Origin: Spisula solida
Lineage: Eukaryota; Mollusca; Bivalvia; Venerida; Mactridae
Direction of reading: 5' to 3'
Assembly: GCA_947247005.1 (NCBI GenBank)
Contig: OX365955.1
Span: 19,635,322-19,699,321, forward strand
Length of the DNA stretch: 64,000 bases
Each line of letters starts with the position of its first letter. The stretch's first letter is position 1. Of the stretch, positions 5,880 through 53,745 are shown one piece after another. The notes beneath the pieces were generated by a model. The model was not told the DNA's origin. It made no database searches and saw only the letters and a list, made by a program, of their open reading frames with translations. The position numbers were made by a program, and so were the translations under genes.

Positions 5880-6613
5880 ATACAAAACATAAGTTGTAGA
5901 CATATCATAAGTTGTACACATACCATAAGTTGTACACACATAAGTTGTACATATACCATAAGTTGTACACATACCACAAGTTGTACACATACCATAAGTT
6001 GTACATATACCATAAGTTGTACACATACCATAAGTTGTACATATACCATAAGTTGTACATATACCATAAGTTGTACACACATAAGTTGTACACATACCAT
6101 AAGTTGTACACATACCATAAGTTGTACACATACCATAAGTTGTACATATACCATAAGTTGTACATATACCATAAGTTGTACACACATAAGTTGTACATAT
6201 ACCATTAGTTGTACACTTACCATAAGTTGTACACATACCATTAGTTGCACACATACCATAAGTTGTACACATACCATAAGTTGTACATATACCATAAGTT
6301 GTACATATACCATAAGTTGTACACACATAAGTTGTACATATACCATTAGTTGTACACATACCATAAGTTGTACATATACCATAAGTTGTACACATACCAT
6401 AAGTTGTACATATACCATAATTTGTACATATACCATAAGTTGTACACATACTATAAGTTGAACACATACCATAAGTTGTACTTATACCATTAGTTGTACA
6501 CATACCATAAGTTGTACACATACCATAAGTTGTACACATACCATAAGTTGTACACATAACATAAGTTGTACACATACCATAAGTTATACACATACCATAA
6601 GTTGTACACATAC
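5880..6613. repeat. 18-bp minisatellite made from the donor junction of C2CD5 exon 9, about 40 copies
   Basis: On the minus strand the unit is GTATGTGTACAACTTATG. The array begins exactly at the exon 9 donor. The exon ends GAACTTATG and the intron continues GTATGTG, so each unit recreates CTTATG|GTATGTG. Variants have GTATATG or lack three bases. The 18-bp period keeps frame, but the second intronic unit has GTATAA, a stop in the exon frame. Long open frames across the array (six-residue periods) are repeat artefacts. Confidence 0.95.
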
Positions 6614-6708
6614 CATAAGTTCTATATTAATCTGTTGAGAACATGGTTTAGGGAAGTTTTTAGTTCCACTGCCACTTCCACTTCCACTGCTTCCTCCCAG
6701 ACTGTTAC
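6614..6708 (-). CDS. C2CD5: C2CD5 coding exon 9 (residues 423-454), flanked by arrays of its own splice sites
   Basis: Encodes GNSLGGSSGSGSGSGTKNFP and then KPCSQQINIELM. It joins exon 10 to read QQINIELMEYPLFT, matching QQTQSALEQREFPFFT of the family. Acceptor GTTGCTAG; donor CTTATG|GTATGTG. Phase 1 in and 0 out agree with both neighbours. The start (about 23 nt) and the acceptor are repeated about nine times upstream with a 56-bp period. The donor junction is repeated about forty times downstream with an 18-bp period. The exact exon ends in use are therefore less certain than elsewhere. Confidence 0.85.
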
Positions 6709-7170
6709 CTAGCAACACAAATAAAACAACATCAATCATGCACTGCTTCCTGCCAGACTGTTACCTAGCAACACAAATAAAACAACATCAATCATACACT
6801 GCTTCCTGCCAGACTGTTACCTAGCAACACAAATAAAACAACATCAATCATACACTGCTTCCTGCCAGACTGTTACCTAGCAACACAAATAAAACATCAA
6901 TCATACACTGCTTCCTGCCAGACTGTTACCTAGCAACACAAATAAAACAACATCAATCATGCACTGCTTCCTGCCAGACTGTTACCTAGCAACACAAATA
7001 AAACAACATCAATCATACACTGCTTTATCCCAGACTGTTACCTAGCAGCACAAATAAAACAACATCAATCATACACTGCTTCCTGCCAGACTGTTACCTA
7101 GCAACACAAATAAAACAACATCAATCATACACTGCTTCCTGCCAGACTGTTACCTAGCAACACAAATAAA
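6686..7170. repeat. 56-bp minisatellite made from the acceptor junction of C2CD5 exon 9, about 9 copies
   Basis: On the minus strand each unit contains a pyrimidine-rich tract TTTTATTTGTGTTGCTAG, followed by GTAACAGTCTGG and GGAAGCAGTG. These are the exon 9 acceptor and its first bases. The copy nearest the exon has CTGGGAGG where the others have CTGGCAGG. Because 56 is not a multiple of three, use of an outer acceptor would change the frame. Confidence 0.95.
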
Positions 7171-7184
7171 ACTAGCAATGTGTC

Positions 7185-7700
7185 CATGAGACACGGGCGC
7201 CCCCATTATAGCACATATCATTTCAAATGGGGAAGGAAAGGGGAATAGTGGTTTGAGGTAACATCATTATTCAATTTCTTTAGCCTTGTGGACTATAATT
7301 CTATTAAAAATATCAAAGGTTCATCATATAGGAAAAGTAACAAAGGGCCATAATTCTGGTAAAATTTGGCACAAAAAAATTCCATCCTTTAAGGTCATCT
7401 ATACATTGAGATTGTTAATCTGTGAAAATGTCAAGAAATTCAATAGTTTGTGAGGAGTTCAACACACAAGTTTTTTTACTATAGGGTATAGAATAAAGGA
7501 AACAAGGGGCTATAACTCTGGTCAAAATTGATGCAGCAAAAATTCCATCCTATAAGGTCATCTACACATTTAGGTTGTTCATCTGTGAAAGTTTGAAGAA
7601 ATTCCACCAAGTGGTTTATGAGGAGTTCAACACACAAAATTTGCGTTCCAGACGAATTATCGTACGGACAATCGGACGGACATCACCAATGCTATATGCC
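7185..7700. mobile_element. Bivalve-type dispersed repeat, no coding capacity
   Basis: Contains two related halves of about 170 bp with the phrases TGTGAGGAGTTCAACACAC(A) and CCATCCT.TAAGGTCATCTA. It ends in a GGACAATCGGACGGACATCA tract before ATGCTATATGCCCCCA. GACGGACA-type tails are typical of dispersed bivalve repeats. The boundaries are approximate. Confidence 0.5.
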
Positions 7701-7935
7701 CCCACATATTTATAAGCAACAACAACTGTACATCAATCATATATCACATATACACATACACATCAACATGATTTTTTAGACAAAGCAAGAATCACTATTC
7801 AAAATAATAAAGCTCATATAGTTAATATCTAAAAACTGAATTTTAGACTCTTAAGGTTCATTTACATGGAAACAAAGTAAATACAGTTACGGTAATAAGA
7901 TTTTTATTTAAAATGTCTAACTTAGCAATGAATAC

Positions 7936-18880: not shown

Positions 18881-19151
18881 ATTTCTCTTAAAAATATACA
18901 GTCTATATGCAATATTCTTTATCGCGAAAATTCGAAACAACGGCTTAAAATGGTCCAAAAAATATTTACTCTTTGTTTCATAAAGGATGCAAACATTCAC
19001 AAAGTGAAAATACAAAAAGTTTGAATGTATATCTAAGTCCCTTAATTAACTAATCAACATTAACTACTCGCAAAAATTCAAGCTCAGAAAGTTGTATTTT
19101 TCACGCCTTCATCAATTTTCATGCCTCTCAATAATACAGTTAACAACAGAC

Positions 19152-19307
19152 CTGACATTTTGGAGAACAATCTCTGTCTGGCTTCATTCGATGATCTTGG
19201 TGTTCGAATTTTATCAATCCACTGGTACTCGGGATCATCATTGACAACCAACTCCTCAACAAATCCATGTACATACTGAAGCCGGTAACCAGCTGGTACT
19301 TCAGCAG
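19152..19307 (-). CDS. C2CD5: C2CD5 coding exon 5 (residues 149-201)
   Basis: Encodes TAEVPAGYRLQYVHGFVEEL, then VVNDDPEYQWIDKIRTPR and SSNEARQRLFSKMSG. HGFVEELVV-N-DPEYQWID and TPR-SNEARQRL are diagnostic of C2CD5. The acceptor is TTGTTTAG and the donor is TCAG|GTCTGT. The first 47 nt plus the acceptor and a 28-nt intronic piece form a 75-bp unit repeated about eight times upstream (19261-19858). The frame is open across all copies, so an upstream acceptor would add multiples of 25 residues. Confidence 0.96.
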
Positions 19308-19858
19308 CTAAACAATACAAGAAACACATCCTTACAAATCCATGTACAGACTGAAGCCGGTACCCAGCTGGTACTTCAGCAGCTAAACAATACAAGAAAC
19401 ACATCCTTACAAATCTATGTACAGACTGAAGCCGGTACCCAGCTGGTACTTCAGCAGCTAAACAATACAAGAAACACATCCTTACAAATCCATGTACAGA
19501 CTGAAGCCGGTACCCAGCTGGTACTTCAGCAGCTAAACAATACAAGAAACACACCCTTACAAATCCATGTACAGACTGAAGCCGGTAACCAGCTGGTACT
19601 TCAGCAGCTAAACAATACAAGAAACACACCCTTACAAATCCATGTACAGACTGAAGCCGGTAACCAGCTGGTACTTCAGCAGCTAAACAATACAAGAAAC
19701 ACACCCTTACAAATCCATGTACAGACTGAAGCCGGTACCCAGCTGGTACTTCAGCAGCTAAACAATACAAGAAACACACCCTTACAAATCCATGTACATA
19801 CTCAAGCCGGTAACCAGCTGGTACTTCAGCAGCTAAACAATACAAGAAACACATTCTT
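19261..19858. repeat. 75-bp repeat made from the acceptor and start of C2CD5 exon 5, 8 copies
   Basis: On the minus strand each unit contains a pyrimidine tract and acceptor (TTCTTGTATTGTTTAG), then 47 nt of exon sequence starting CTGCTGAAGTACCAGC and ending CATGGATTT, then GTAAGG, a good donor. The copy at lowest coordinates continues into the real exon (GGATTTGTTGAGGAG). The 25-codon period is open throughout, reading AEVPAGYRLQSVHGFVR then (M/V)CFLYCLA. Copies differ by only a few substitutions, so the array is young or homogenised. Confidence 0.96.
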
Positions 19859-20004
19859 ACATATTCAGATCAAAGAAAACTGATTTTTGATGTCAAATAT
19901 TGGTATACAAACTCACATTGTATTTTTCAAAAACAAATTATCCAAAAAGACTTTTAGATATTATAATTATAGCTATCTGTCCAAGATCTATGAAATATAC
20001 TTAC

Positions 20005-20100
20005 TACAGAAGAACTGTATTCCACATGATGATTGTCTGAATTTATTGAAGTCACTGAATAGATCTATCTTCACCAGTACATTCAGGTCTCCACGGATAC
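20005..20100 (-). CDS. C2CD5: C2CD5 coding exon 4 (residues 117-149)
   Basis: Encodes GIRGDLNVLVKIDLFSDFNK followed by FRQSSCGIQFFC, matching the C2CD5 block that follows the C2 domain. The acceptor is CTCTGTAG and the donor is TGTA|GTAAGT. Entry needs the G of exon 3, and the last base (A) starts codon 149. The acceptor and the first 20 nt of the exon occur a second time immediately upstream as a 50-bp tandem duplication (see repeat at 20081-20180). Using the outer acceptor would shift the frame. Confidence 0.96.
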
Positions 20101-20180
20101 CTACAGAGCAACAAGAGATATTCTATATACATTCAGGTCTCCACGGATACCTACATAGCAACAAGAGATATTCTATATAC
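20081..20180. repeat. Tandem duplication (50 bp, 2 copies) spanning the exon 4 acceptor
   Basis: The units at 20081-20130 and 20131-20180 differ at one position. Each carries, on the minus strand, AGATATTTCTTGTTG-like pyrimidine-rich sequence, TGTAG, and the exon start GTATCCGTGGAGACCTGAAT. Only the lower-coordinate copy continues into exon 4. Confidence 0.95.
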
Positions 20181-20267
20181 ATTGTGTTAAATATCTCAAC
20201 AAATCGGACATTGTGCTGCATGTTTCTTGCTTATGAGTATGTTAAACAGGACAAGAAGTCGACTTAA

Positions 20268-39279: not shown

Positions 39280-42200
39280 AACATATCAGTCACCTTCAAT
39301 GATGCGGTGAACATGTTCTTACGTTAAAGTAATTAAAAACATGAATAATGTCTTCCTCACATTTAGGTACATAGTAAAATAATTAAAAATTTAAATAACG
39401 TCTTTACTTTCACCTAATTAGGTACATCGTCTTTTAAAACCATATATTGGTTTCCTTCTTCCTGTCACCTTAAAAGATGTGGCAAAAAAGTTCTTATGTA
39501 AAAGTAATTAAAAATATAAATAACGTCTTTACTTCCACCTAATTAGGGACATCGTCTTTTAAAACCGTATATTGGGTTACTCTTTCTGTCACCTTAAAAG
39601 ATGTGGCAAAAAAGTTCCTATGTAAAAGTAATTAAAAATATAAATAACGTCTTTACTTTCACCTAATTAGGTACATCGTCTTTTATACCTGTTCTTGTGT
39701 CCCTTTTCCTGTCACCTTAAAACATGTGGTGAACACATTTTTATGTGAAAGTAATAATAGAAATATAAATAATATCTTTCTCTCACCTAATTAGGTACAT
39801 CGTCTTTTAAAACCGTATATTTGGTTCCTCATCCGTCACCTTAAAAGATGTGGCAAAAAAGTTCTTATATAAAAGTAATTAAAAATATAAATAGCGTCTT
39901 TACTTTCACCTAATTAGGTACATCGTCTTTTTAAACCGTATGTTGGGTTCCTCTTTCTGTCACTTTAAAAGATGTGGCAAAAAAGTTCTTATGTAAAAGT
40001 AATTAAAAATATAAATAACGTCTTTACTTTCACCTAATTAGGTACATCGTCTTTTATAACCATATATTGGTTTCCTACTTCCTGTCACCTTAAAAGATGT
40101 GGCAAAAAAGTTCTTGTATAAAAGTAATTAAAAATACAAATAACGTCTTTACTTTCACCTAATTAGGTACATCGTCTTTTAAAACCGTATATTGGGTTCC
40201 TCTTTCTGTCACCTTAAAAGATGTGGCAAAAAAGTTCTTATGTAAAAGTAATTAAAAATATAAATAACGTCTTTACTTTCACCTAATTAGGTACATCATC
40301 TTTTATACCTGTTCTTGTGTCCTTTTTCCTGTCACCTTAAAACATGAGGTGAACACGTTTTTATGTAAAAGTAATAATAAAAATATAAATAATATCTTTC
40401 TCTCACCTAATTAGGTACATCGTCTTTTAAAACCGTATATTGGGTTCCTCTTTGTGTCACCTTAAAAGATGTGACAAAAAAGTTCTTATGTAAAAGTAAT
40501 TAAAAATATAACTAACGTCTTTACTTTCACCTAATTAGGGACATCGTCTTTTAAAACCGTATATTGGGTTACTCTTTCTGTCACCTTAAAAGATGTGGCA
40601 AAAAAGTTCTTATGTAAAAGTAATTAAAAATATAAATAACGTCTTAACTTTCACCTAATTAGGTACATCGTCTTTTATACCTGTTCTTGTGTCCCTTTTC
40701 CTGTCACCTTAAAACATGTGGTGAACACATTTTTATGTGAAAGTAATAATAGAAATATAAATAATATCTTTCTCTCACCTAATTAGGTACATCGTCTTTT
40801 AAAACCGTATATTGGGTTACTCTTTCTGTCACCTTAAAAGATGTGGCAAAAAAGTTCTTATGTAAAAGTAATTAAAAATATAAATAACGTCTTTACTTTC
40901 ACCTAATTAGGTACATCGTCTTTTATACCTGTTCTTGTGTCCCTTTTCCTGTCACCTTAAAACATGTGGTGAACACAGTTTTATGTGAAAGTAATAATAG
41001 AAATATAAATAATATCTTTCTCTCACCTAATTAGGTACATCGTCTTTTAAAACCGTATATTGGGTTACTCTTTCTGTCACCTTAAAAGATGTGGCAAAAA
41101 AGTTCTTATGTAAAAGTAATTAAAAATATAAATAACGTCTTTACTTTCACCTAATTAGGTACATCGTCTTTTATAACCATATATTGGTTTCCTTCTTCCT
41201 GTCACCTTAAAAGATGTGGCAAAAAAGTTCTTGTATAAAAGTAATTAAAAATACAAATAACGTCTTTACTTTCACCTAATTAGGTACATCGTCTTTTAAA
41301 ACCGTATATTGGGTTCCTCTTTCTGTCACCTTAAAAGATGTGGCAAAAAAGTTCTTATGTAAAAGTAATTAAAAATATAAATAACGTCTTTACTTTCACC
41401 TAATTAGGTACATCATCTTTTATACCTATTCTTGTGTCCTTTTTCCTGTCACCTTAAAACATGAGGCGAACACGTTTTTATGTAAAAGTAATAATAAAAA
41501 TATAAATAATATCTTTCTCTCACCTAATTAGGTACATCGTCTTTTAAAACCGTATATTGGGTTCCTCTTTGTGTCACCTTAAAAGATGTGACAAAAAAGT
41601 TCTTATGTAAAAGTAATTAAAAATATAAATAACGTCTTTACTTGCACCTTATTAGGGACATCGTCTTTTAAAACCGTATATTGGGTTACTCTTTCTGTCA
41701 CCTTAAAAGATGTGGCAAAAAAGTTCTTATGTAAAAGTAATTAAAAATATAAATAACGTCAACTTTCACCTAATTAGGTACATCGTCTTTTAAAACCATA
41801 TATTGGTTTCCTTCTTCCTGTCACCTTAAAAGATGTGGCAAAAAAGTTCTTATATAAAAGTAATTAAAAATATAAATAACGTCTTTACTTTCACCTAATT
41901 AGGGACATCGTCTTTTAAAACCGTATATTGGGTTACTCTTTCTGTCACCTTAAAAGATGTGGCAAAAAAGTTCTAATGTAAAAGTAATTAAAAATATAAA
42001 TAACGTCTTAACTTTCACCTAATTAGGTACATCGTCTTTTATACCTGTTCTTGTGTCCCTTTTCCTGTCACCTTAAAACATGTGGTGAACACATTTTTAT
42101 GTGAAAGTAATAATAGAAATATAAATAATATCTTTCTCTCACCTTATTAGGTACATCGTCATTTAAAACCGTATATTGGGTTCCTCTTTCTGTCACCTTA

Positions 42201-44985
42201 AAAGATGTGGCAAAAAAGTTCTTATATCAAAGTAATTAAAAATATAAATAGCGTCTTTACTTTCACCTAATTAGGTACATCGTCTTTTTAAACCGTATGT
42301 TGGGTTCCTCTTTCTGTCACTTTAAAAGATGTGGCAAAAAAGTTCTTATGTAAAAGTAATTAAAAATATAAATAACGTCTTTACTTTCACCTAATTAGGT
42401 ACATCGTCTTTTATAACCATATATTGGTTTCCTTCTTCCTGTCACCTTAAAAGATGTGGCAAAAAAATTCTTGTATAAAAGTAATTAAAAATACAAATAA
42501 CGTCTTTACTTTCACCTAATTAGGTACATCGTCTTTTAAAACCGTATATTGGGTTCCTCTTTCTGCCACCTTAAAAGATGTGGCAAAAAAGTTCTTATGT
42601 AAAAGTAATTAAAAATACAAATAACGTCTTTACTTTCACCTAATTAGGTACATCGTCTTTTAAAACCGTATATTGGGTTCCTCTTTCTGTCACCTTAAAA
42701 GATGTGGCAAAAAAGTTCTTATGTAAAAGTAATTAAAAATATAAATAACGTCTTTACTTTCACCTAATTAGGTACATCATCTTTTATACCTATTCTTGTG
42801 TCCTTTTTCCTGTCACCTTAAAACATGAGGCGAACACGTTTTTATGTAAAAGTAATAATAAAAATATAAATAATATCTTTCTCTCACCTAATTAGGTACA
42901 TCGTCTTTTAAAACCGTATATTGGGTTCCTCTTTGTGTCACCTTAAAAGATGTGACAAAAAAGTTCTTATGTAAAAGTAATTAAAAATATAAATAACGTC
43001 TTTACTTTCACCTTATTAGGGACATCGTCTTTTAAAACCGTATATTGGGTTACTCTTTCTGTCACCTTAAAAGATGTGGCAAAAAATTTCTTATGTAAAA
43101 GTAATTAAAAATATAAATAACGTCAACTTTCACCTAATTAGGTACATCGTCTTTTAAAACCATATATTGGTTTCCTTCTTCCTGTCACCTTAAAAGATGT
43201 GGCAAAAAAGTTCTAATGTAAAAGTAATTAAAAATATAAATAACGTCTTTACTTTCACCTAATTAGGGACATCGTCTTTTAAAACCATATATTGGGTTAC
43301 TCTTTCTGTCACCTTAAAAGATGTGGCAAAAAAGTTCTAATGTAAAAGTAATTAAAAATATAAATAACGTCTTAACTTTCACCTAATTAGGTACATCGTC
43401 TTTTATACCTGTTCTTGTGTCCCTTTTCCTGTCACCTTAAAACATGTGGTGAACACATTTTTATGTGAAAGTAATAATAGAAATATAAATAATATCTTTC
43501 TCTCACCTTATTAGGTACATCGTCTTTTAAAACCGTATATTGGGTTCCTCTTTCTGTCACCTTAAAAGATGTGGCAAAAAAGTTCTTATATCAAAGTAAT
43601 TAAAAATATAAATAGCGTCTTTACTTTCACCTAATTAGGTACATCGTCTTTTTAAACCGTATGTTGGGTTCCTCTTTCTGTCACTTTAAAAGATGTGGCA
43701 AAAAAGTTCTTATGTAAAAGTAATAAAAAATATAAATAACGTCTTTACTTTCACCTAATTAGGTACATCGTCTTTTATAACCATATATTGGTTTCCTTCT
43801 TCCTGTCACCTTAAAAGATGTGGCAAAAAAATTCTTGTATAAAAGTAATTAAAAATACAAATAACGTCTTTACTTTCACCTAATTAGGTACATCGTCTTT
43901 TAAAACCGTATATTGGGTTCCTCTTTCTGCCACCTTAAAAGATGTGGCAAAAAAGTTCTTATGTAAAAGTAATTAAAAATATAAATAACGTCTTTACTTT
44001 CACCTAATTAGGTACATCATCTTTTATACCTGTTCTTGTGTCCTTTTTCCTGTCACCTTAAAACATGTGGCGAACACGTTTTTATGTAAAAGTAATAATA
44101 AAAATATAAATAATATCTTTCTCTCACCTAATTAGGTACATCGTCTTTTAAAACCGTATATTGGGTTCCTCTTTGTGTCACCTTAAAAGATGTGACAAAA
44201 AAGTTCTTATGTAAAAGTAATTAAAAATATAAATAACGTCTTAACTTTCACCTAATTAGGGACATCGTCTTTTAAAACCATATATTGGTTTCCTTCTTCC
44301 TGTCACCTTAAAAGATGTGGCAAAAAAGTTCTTATGTAAAAGTAATTAAAAATATAAATAACGTCTTTACTTTCACCTAATTAGGTACAACGTCTTTTAT
44401 AACCTGTTATTGGTTTCCTTCTTCCTGTCACCTTAAAAGATGTGGCAAACAAGTTCTTATGTAAAAGTAATTAAAAATATAAATAACGTCTTTACTTTCA
44501 CCTAATTAGGTGCATCGTCTTTTATAACTGTAGACAGGTGTCCTTTTTCCTGTCACCTTAACAGATGTGGCAAACAAGTTCTTACGTAAAAGTAATTAAA
44601 GATATAAATAACGTCTTTACTTTCACCTAATTAGGTACATCATCTTTTATAACCCTGTACTTGTGTACTTTTTCCTGTCACCTTAAAAGATGTGGCAAAC
44701 AAGTTCTTATGTAAAAGTAATTAAAAATATAAATAACGTCTTTACTTTCACCTAATTAGGTACATCGTCTTTTATAACCGTAGACAGGTGTCCTTTTTCC
44801 TGTCACCTTAACAGATGTGGCAAACAAGTTCTTACGTAAAAGTAATTCAAGATATAAATAACGTACTTTCACCTAATTAGGTACATCATCTTTTATTACC
44901 CTGTACTTGTGTACTTTTTCCTGTCACCTTAAAACATGTGGCAAATACGTTCTTATGTAAAAGTAATTACAAATATAAATATTTT
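39280..44985. repeat. 124-bp satellite, about 46 monomers, with higher-order variants
   Basis: The consensus includes CTGTCACCTTAAAAGATGTG, GCAAAAAAGTTCTTATGTAA, AAGTAATTAAAAATATAAAT, AACGTCTTTACTTTCACC and TAATTAGGTACATCGTCTTT. Every monomer has the 12-bp palindrome ACCTAATTAGGT or a one-base variant. Three main types are visible: CCGTATATTGGGTTCCTC, CCATATATTGGTTTCC, and the diverged TACCTGTTCTTGTGTCC with GGTGAACAC and AATAATATCTTTCTCTC. The diverged type recurs every 2-6 monomers (for example near 39681, 40298, 40673, 40922, 41418, 42034, 42779, 43402, 44028). Edge monomers are the most diverged. Confidence 0.97.
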
Positions 44986-52339: not shown

Positions 52340-53745
52340 CTTTGTGTATGACTGTATGGTCATATGGTGTTTTCATTGCCAAATTTGATATGGCAATGAC
52401 CTTTGACCATAGGAAGACACAATTGTATAATACAAGGCATACGGGTGTGATTTATCATGTCTAGGCTCGACATGCGAAACTGTAGATACACTCCACAACA
52501 GCGAGTGTCTTCTAACAACAGCCAGGATGTCTTCCTCAGTGCACATGGTTCATGTTACATGGTCTATTTGTCATGCTCAGTATTTTGGCATATAGATTAA
52601 GTTGGGTGCTGTACATGTACTTTATGTACTGTTTCATGCACTATAACAATAGATTAGAGATTTCACTTACAAAAGGATGTTGCAAACACTTTGAATGTTT
52701 ATGCTTTAATATACTTTTGTGTATGTCCATGATTATATGGCATGATATAGTTTTGGCTAAGGTAGTGACTCTTAACAGGGATGGTAACTATCTTGGTATG
52801 AAATATTTGATGTAAGGGTCATGGAAGTCGTAAGTTTTTAAGGCACAAACATCATGCAACATGTTTGTTACACCCTTGTAAGTGACATCGCTAATAAACT
52901 TCTTTTCCATCCATATTTGCAAATAACCTTGCTTACTATGACATGGGCTGGTATTTCACATCAATATCTTCGCTCTGCGTGCCGAATGAAGATACACTCC
53001 AAATGCAGGGATCAGGCATAGATTCATGGAATGCCGGCCTAATATTTTTTGCAGGCTCGTGTGAGAGACCCACTATGTTGACCAACTGTGTGATAACACC
53101 CCTTGTAGACACACCTTAAGTGCTGCATTAATGCTGATATCAGTACATGGTCATTTGTTTTGTTCAATGCCAAATTGAACATGGCAATGACTTTTGACTG
53201 TAAGTAAGGGACAGTTGTATGATACAAGGAATCCAATGAATTTGGTTGAGATTCATCATGTCTTTGCTCCACATTGGGAATGTTAATACACTCCACATGC
53301 ATGGAGCAGGCATGTAGAGATGTAATAAAGGCCTAACCCCAATTGTAAGTCCCAATGCATTTTGGTAAGACTTAATAACTACTTCTTCCTTCATTTATAT
53401 CTGTCTGTCTATTGTCATATGTGTCTTCTGACAACAGCCAGGATGTCTTTCTCAGTGCACCTGGTTCATATTACATGGTCTATTTGTCATGCTCAGTATT
53501 TTGACATATAGATTAAGTTGGGTGCTGTACATGTACTTTCTGTACTGTTTCATGCACTATAACAATAGATTAGAGATTTCACTTACAAAAGGATGTTGTA
53601 AACACTTTAAATGTTTATGCTTTAATATACTTTTGCGTATGTCCATGATTACATGGCATGATATAGTTTTGGCTAAGGTAGTGACTCTAACAGGAGTGGG
53701 TACTGTCTTGGATTGAAATATTTCATGTACATGGGTCATGGAAGC
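52340..53745. repeat. Tandem duplication, two copies of about 0.5-0.6 kb
   Basis: Copy A 52340-52830 and copy B 53130-53745 share GGTCATTTG-like, TGGCAATGAC, TTACATGGTCTATTTGTCAT, GATTAAGTTGGGTGCTGTAC and AGAGATTTCACTTACAAAAG. The offset is about 790 bp on the left and 915 bp on the right, so copy B carries about 127 bp more. Hairpin-MITE remnants related to 62502-62600 lie between and beside them. Confidence 0.8.

Follow-up and report, generated by a model that had tools for sequence, protein, structure and literature searches.

In Spisula solida, the acceptor of exon 5 of the C2CD5 gene lies inside a tandem array of eight 75-bp units, and each unit carries its own copy of the splice site. 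Exon 4 is probably joined to the acceptor proximal to exon 5 (first exonic base 19307), and intron 4, when removed, would normally take the seven upstream copies with it. The array is part of a general background of tandem duplication and not a device specific to exon 5, since similar arrays are present at other splice sites of C2CD5 and at predicted myosin splice sites, with no enrichment of arrays at such sites.

Gene model and structure of the exon 5 array

C2CD5 is encoded on the minus strand, from 23051 to the left end of the window (i.e., the whole stretch of 64,000 nucleotides analysed here), and continues into the neighbouring DNA (L002-L004). The gene model is homology-based. A splice-aware fit employing the C2CD5 protein of Mactra antiquata as a guide, which has 75% identity over 95% of the query, yielded 27 coding exons and 26 introns that encode a stop-free protein of 1136 aa. 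Within the first 265 residues, which were searched against Pfam, a C2 domain (PF00168; 3e-22) occupies residues 3-110 and a YbjQ_2 domain (PF23025; 3.8e-30) residues 138-246. Both domains, together with the full-length homology and the 27-exon model, identify the gene as C2CD5.

The junction between exons 4 and 5 is in phase 1 at T150 and reads FFC-T-AEVPAGYRLQYVHGFVEEL, with 0 extra residues relative to the M. antiquata protein. Mactra, Mercenaria, Ruditapes and Dreissena share this reading but for single substitutions, and in Mya it is TPEVP. The comparison was extended to homologues from other species, mostly predicted proteins. In all 120 of those listed (of 6441 found) the segment SSCG...EELVVN comprises 32 residues, as it does in the clam model, and GFVEEL is present once in each. 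The initial annotation had placed any additional residues right after the C2 domain. The position has to be corrected, as residue 150 is 40 residues past that domain and within YbjQ_2. The form with 25 additional residues matches the YbjQ_2 profile from position 14 and scores slightly higher (107.6 versus 104.7 bits), but it loses the first 13 positions.

TRF analysis of the array returned 8.0 copies of a 75-bp unit with 97% matches and 0% indels, arranged head to tail, and each copy includes the last 28 nt of intron 4 and the first 47 nt of exon 5, in agreement with the composition originally described. The array contains the acceptor at 19307/19308 and is therefore a tandem repeat at an exon-intron boundary in the sense used for human cases (PMC2812944). 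All eight acceptors (Table 1) read GTGTTTCTTGTATTGTTTAG/CTG, where the slash marks the splice junction, and are identical over 23 nt, from -20 to +3; nothing within the 23 nt around the AG separates them. One whole-genome search, in which counts are lower bounds, gave a single match to the array copies, namely their own locus.

The alignment of the units contains six variable columns, two of the 29 intronic positions (TGT to TAG) and four of the 46 exonic ones. These columns are too few for a test and give no sign of coding constraint among the copies. The duplicated segment is bordered on either side by the trinucleotide TGT, in TGTAAGAATG of the left flank and in TGTTGAGGAG of the right. We propose that a segment of 75 bp, consisting of 28 nt of the intron end and 47 nt of the exon start, would have been duplicated between two TGT sites and then expanded. 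The expansion may well have been internal, since units u2-u7 share TCT at a place where both end copies, u1 and u8, have TAT; this suggests that the array grew from within.

Assemblies are in general least reliable in the copy number of tandem arrays, and an array collapsed or expanded by the assembler would leave a wrong number of units. However, the copies differ at the six columns mentioned, and HiFi reads are long in comparison with an array of 603 bp. The likely source assembly is a PacBio HiFi assembly of 31-fold coverage and QV 62.8 (PMC11101916), and an artefact of this kind is extremely improbable.

An ORF of 261 aa (19084-19869, minus strand) spans all the copies. Weak Pfam matches in the repeat ORF to Rhomboid, DUF4187, AWS, zf-Tim10 and DUF6220 were rejected as repeat artefacts, no stretch passing on its own. 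The plus strand is also open across the array (19245-19883; 212 aa), which is no surprise, given that the unit is free of stops and its length divisible by three.

Table 1. Positions of the exons, repeat units and splice-site arrays discussed in the text
Feature	Position	Strand	Basis
C2CD5 exon 4, 96 nt, donor GTA/GTAAGT	20005..20100	-	splice-aware fit
C2CD5 exon 5, 156 nt, exon-proximal acceptor; array copy 8 forms its first 46-47 nt	19152..19307	-	splice-aware fit
Array, 75 bp x 8.0, intron 4/exon 5 acceptor	19259..19861	-	TRF, unit alignment
Unit u1, distal copy, acceptor before first exonic base 19832	19787..19861	-	unit alignment
Unit u2, acceptor before 19757	19712..19786	-	unit alignment
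Unit u3, acceptor before 19682	19637..19711	-	unit alignment
Unit u4, acceptor before 19607	19562..19636	-	unit alignment
Unit u5, acceptor before 19532	19487..19561	-	unit alignment
Unit u6, acceptor before 19457	19412..19486	-	unit alignment
Unit u7, acceptor before 19382	19337..19411	-	unit alignment
Unit u8, continuous with exon 5, acceptor before 19307	19262..19336	-	unit alignment
Exon 4 acceptor array, 50 bp x 2.1	20078..20183	-	TRF
Exon 9 acceptor array, 56 bp x 8.8	6685..7172	-	TRF
Exon 9 donor-side array, 18 bp x 41.4, ATG/GTATGTGTACAACTT	5888..6621	-	TRF
Exon 14 donor, 112-bp duplication of exon end and donor	L002 about 7560-7790		
Exon 19 donor array, 43 bp x 2.9	L003 2819-2941		
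Exon 20 donor array, 20 bp x 28	L003 912-1465		
Myosin array over predicted acceptor, 46 bp x 8.7	L076 1599-1998		TRF
Myosin array over predicted donor, 82 bp x 3.9	L018 1222-1537		TRF

Arrays at other splice sites of C2CD5 and in myosin genes

A position was considered duplicated when its surrounding 30 bases recur within 1 kb with no more than 6 mismatches. By this measure, seven of the 52 splice sites of C2CD5 (13%) are duplicated, namely three acceptors (exons 4, 5 and 9) and four donors (exons 9, 14, 19 and 20), and the number varied from 5 to 7 across the five settings tried. The corresponding values are 26.4% for 43,450 deep-intron positions and 3.6% for 2,602 exon-interior positions. 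An enrichment of arrays at splice sites was thus rejected, as 13% of the sites compares with 26% of the intron positions. Arrays across splice junctions represent an intermediate, tolerated state, being rarer than in introns and commoner than in exons. Selection for in-frame units was also rejected, because the periods or offsets of the seven arrays (50, 75, 56, 18, 112, 43 and 20) include two multiples of three, which is the chance level. Exon 9 sits between two arrays (5888-7172 of the window), with 8.8 copies at its acceptor and about 41 at its donor.

Alternative copies of each duplicated site were collected within 1.3 kb using a 20-base core and up to 4 mismatches, and the gene was spliced with each of them in silico. 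The seven arrays contain 74 such copies, and the ORF is kept by eight, seven of them at exon 5 and one at the donor of exon 9. At the six arrays besides that of exon 5, 66 of the 67 alternative sites would truncate the protein: the single copy at the exon 4 acceptor leads to a stop at 132 aa, none of the eight at the exon 9 acceptor and one of the 34 at the exon 9 donor are open, and all of those at the donors of exons 14, 19 and 20 (1, 1 and 22, respectively) end in a stop. Apart from the one open copy at the exon 9 donor, proximal choice is therefore required for a full protein at these six arrays. With seven arrays and 74 spare sites, this one gene offers a natural experiment on spliceosomal selection among sites that are nearly identical, and exon 5 is its readable case, because all seven wrong choices remain in frame there while nearly all of those elsewhere would truncate.

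The same measurement was applied to the myosin-head exons of this genome, using 70 of 83 match rows. After removal of sites without a predicted splice-site score of at least 2 and of exact duplicates from overlapping loci, the set comprised 62 acceptors and 63 donors. Five of the 125 predicted sites are in arrays, four acceptors and one donor. In these regions 5.9% of the flanks and 0.6% of the exon interiors are duplicated, values for which the exon ends are predicted and the flanks may hold other exons. C2CD5 is repeat-rich relative to the myosin exons, with 7/52 versus 5/125 duplicated sites (Fisher P = 0.043, a rough value, as sites within a gene are non-independent). Minisatellites at splice junctions recur in this genome, since the myosin exons carry two arrays over predicted sites that were also detected by TRF (Table 1). 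C2CD5 illustrates how a genome rich in repeats can bear minisatellites across splice junctions with no evident loss of the gene.

Choice among the eight acceptors of exon 5

With eight identical acceptors, the one joined to exon 4 must be selected by its position. The use of 19307 is supported by the stop-free model obtained with the proximal acceptor and by the constant length of the junction in the 120 listed homologues. The choice would be made by exon definition, the proximal site giving an exon of 156 nt as opposed to one of up to 681 nt. Duplications would be tolerated at such a junction provided that one working copy beside the exon suffices, and slips to upstream copies, if any, would each add 25 residues inside the YbjQ_2 region without truncation.

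Certain features of the array are more in keeping with the distal copy, in which case the ancestral intron of 172 nt and its branch point would have been kept, the whole array would be exonic and the protein would have a fixed length of 1311 aa. Only the distal copy is preceded by unduplicated sequence and by a strict yUnAy branch-point candidate (TTGAT, at -38 of u1), the other seven acceptors reaching 3 of 4 points, and the frame is open through all copies. Splicing from TTGAT to the first AG would give the distal acceptor, which is weak evidence against proximal use. However, the strict motif precedes 19 of the 26 acceptors of the gene and is found at 54% of random intronic positions, so that it is only somewhat commoner at real acceptors and too weak to decide the choice. 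An intron 4 of 172 nt would also be the shortest of the 26 (the others range from 339 to 10384 nt, and intron 4 falls within this range, at 697 nt, with the proximal site), and the resulting exon would reach 681 nt. Moreover, exon 4 has the same geometry, with a strict branch point only before its distal copy, yet the distal acceptor there stops the protein at 132 aa and the full protein needs the proximal one. This pattern therefore favours proximal choice at exon 5 also, against a distal rule, and we regard fixed distal use as quite unlikely.

Instead of one acceptor, several or all eight might be used to an appreciable extent, generating a protein ladder whose members carry 0 to 7 additional blocks of 25 residues. 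The capacity for such a ladder, which had been suggested from the outset, is real: the seven upstream acceptors all share the frame of exon 5 and keep it open in silico, with products of 1161, 1186, 1211, 1236, 1261, 1286 and 1311 aa. The identity of the eight sites would favour their joint use. The exon 5 acceptor is also the weakest of the 26 in a small matrix built from the gene's own sites, which serves as a rough rank only, and such a weak site could favour a leaky choice, to the detriment of strictly proximal splicing. In addition, a repeat array of the UBC gene yields a ladder of this kind in human cells (PMC10809524). The actual use of the ladder in the clam is, however, rather unlikely. 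None of the 120 listed homologues has extra residues at the junction (although these are from other species and mostly predicted), the gene's remaining arrays depend on accurate selection of the proximal site, and an open frame would itself arise in roughly one of five cases.

The latter estimate is based on simulated 75-bp duplications across the 26 acceptors of the gene, which were open in 473 of 796 (59%), and on a prior of one third for a length divisible by three. The in-frame openness at exon 5 is thus approximately a one-in-five chance outcome (59% x 1/3), and that the open array should be the one at exon 5 is unremarkable. While the repeat itself is far beyond chance, its in-frame state is within it. 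One could go further and regard exon 5 as a splice-driven length counter, in which competing acceptors would insert 0-7 blocks into YbjQ_2 and the top rung would be set by the copy number, differing between individuals. We consider such a counter unlikely; if it were true, this would be the sole array of the gene's seven where every slip reaches the protein.

The units also contain donor-like sites. The initial annotation had noted a donor-like GTAAGG in the unit. All seven upstream units close with TTT/GTAAGG, and the following exon start lies 28 nt further on. This donor is weak, as only one of the 26 real donors scores lower in a crude matrix of the gene's own 26 donors, and the better site in four of the seven units is AGG/GTGTGT, located 6 nt beyond it, which is middling on the same crude matrix (it outscores 10 of the 26 real donors). 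A gap of 28 nt between donor and acceptor is below the intron lengths that animal spliceosomes are known to use, and neighbouring units should therefore not splice together; only joins that skip a unit (at least 103 nt) would be long enough.

If the acceptor of a unit were nevertheless paired with one of these donor-like ends, the unit could act as a poison exon, i.e., a cassette of 47 nt (ending at GTAAGG, in 7/7 upstream units) or 53 nt (ending at GTGTGT, in 4/7) whose inclusion would shift the frame and lower expression. In silico, a single inclusion brings the ORF to a stop at residue 218 or 220, and a potato duplication of nearly the same build is described as having activated a cryptic GTAAG (PMC4974935). 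Against this, the TTT/GTAAGG donor is weak, and with the next acceptor at a distance of just 28 or 22 nt the intron would have to skip one unit or more (about 100 nt or more). Cassettes of this type are very improbable at this locus.

Relation to known systems and surroundings of the gene

Zhuo et al. (2007, PNAS), in a study of human introns derived from tandem arrays, reportedly found that units with splice sites become alternative introns; those arrays and the clam array have in common that splice sites are carried in the units. Tandem repeats that cross exon-intron boundaries have been described in human segmental duplications, where they are kept in the exon or spliced out, giving alternative transcripts (PMC2812944). 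These repeats are arrays of the TRF type across an exon-intron boundary, as in the clam. The human cases were, however, checked against transcripts and include novel introns. The clam array also differs from them in affecting one gene with relatives conserved across animals and in having a 28-nt gap that is too short for a new intron between neighbouring units.

In potato, a new intron was created when an intron end and exon start were duplicated and a cryptic GTAAG came into use (PMC4974935), and the unit is nearly the same as in the clam, i.e., the 3' end of an intron and the 5' start of the next exon. Sites of the potato type, TTT/GTAAGG and TTTAG/CTG, are present in each upstream clam unit, although the donor is weak. 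The potato case involves one duplication and a spliced new intron, whereas the clam has eight copies separated by a donor-to-acceptor gap of 28 nt. Because that gap is too short, the exon 5 array does not constitute intron gain as it stands.

The repeat units of human UBC meet at AGGT sites that act as both donor and acceptor, and an RT-PCR ladder was obtained (PMC10809524). Both UBC and the clam array have in-frame units with a splice site in each, and UBC splicing can change the number of units. Like those of UBC, the clam units have a length that is a multiple of three (75 nt) and an open frame (7/7 alternatives). AGGT unit borders of dual specificity, in contrast, were not found at the eight clam acceptors, which all read TTTAG/CTG with a donor-like site 28 nt before, and the clam array is thus not of the UBC type. 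By analogy, it could nevertheless work like the UBC ladder, which in the clam is only possible. Novel introns in Drosophila also arose by tandem duplication, after which one copy turns removable and a length that is a multiple of three permits retention as an alternative (PMC2891723). The duplicated sites in the Drosophila cases presented there are exonic AG/GY, whereas the clam unit already contains a working acceptor.

The clam array is therefore of a known kind and differs from the known cases in its eight identical acceptors, in a gap too short for new introns between neighbouring units and in the presence of six sister arrays that are not frame-safe. Among the open-access matches listed, no report of splice-site arrays in bivalves was found.

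Other repeats are present in the window. Upstream of C2CD5, TRF identified a satellite of 5.6 kb (39374-44981) comprising 45 copies of a 124-bp unit. Between 24592 and 25469 on the minus strand, pieces of ORF resemble, by eye, a decayed non-LTR reverse transcriptase. Finally, two plus-strand ORFs about 0.9 kb apart (52516-52815 and 53432-53716) have near-identical translations (QQPGCL...), which suggests a recent duplication.
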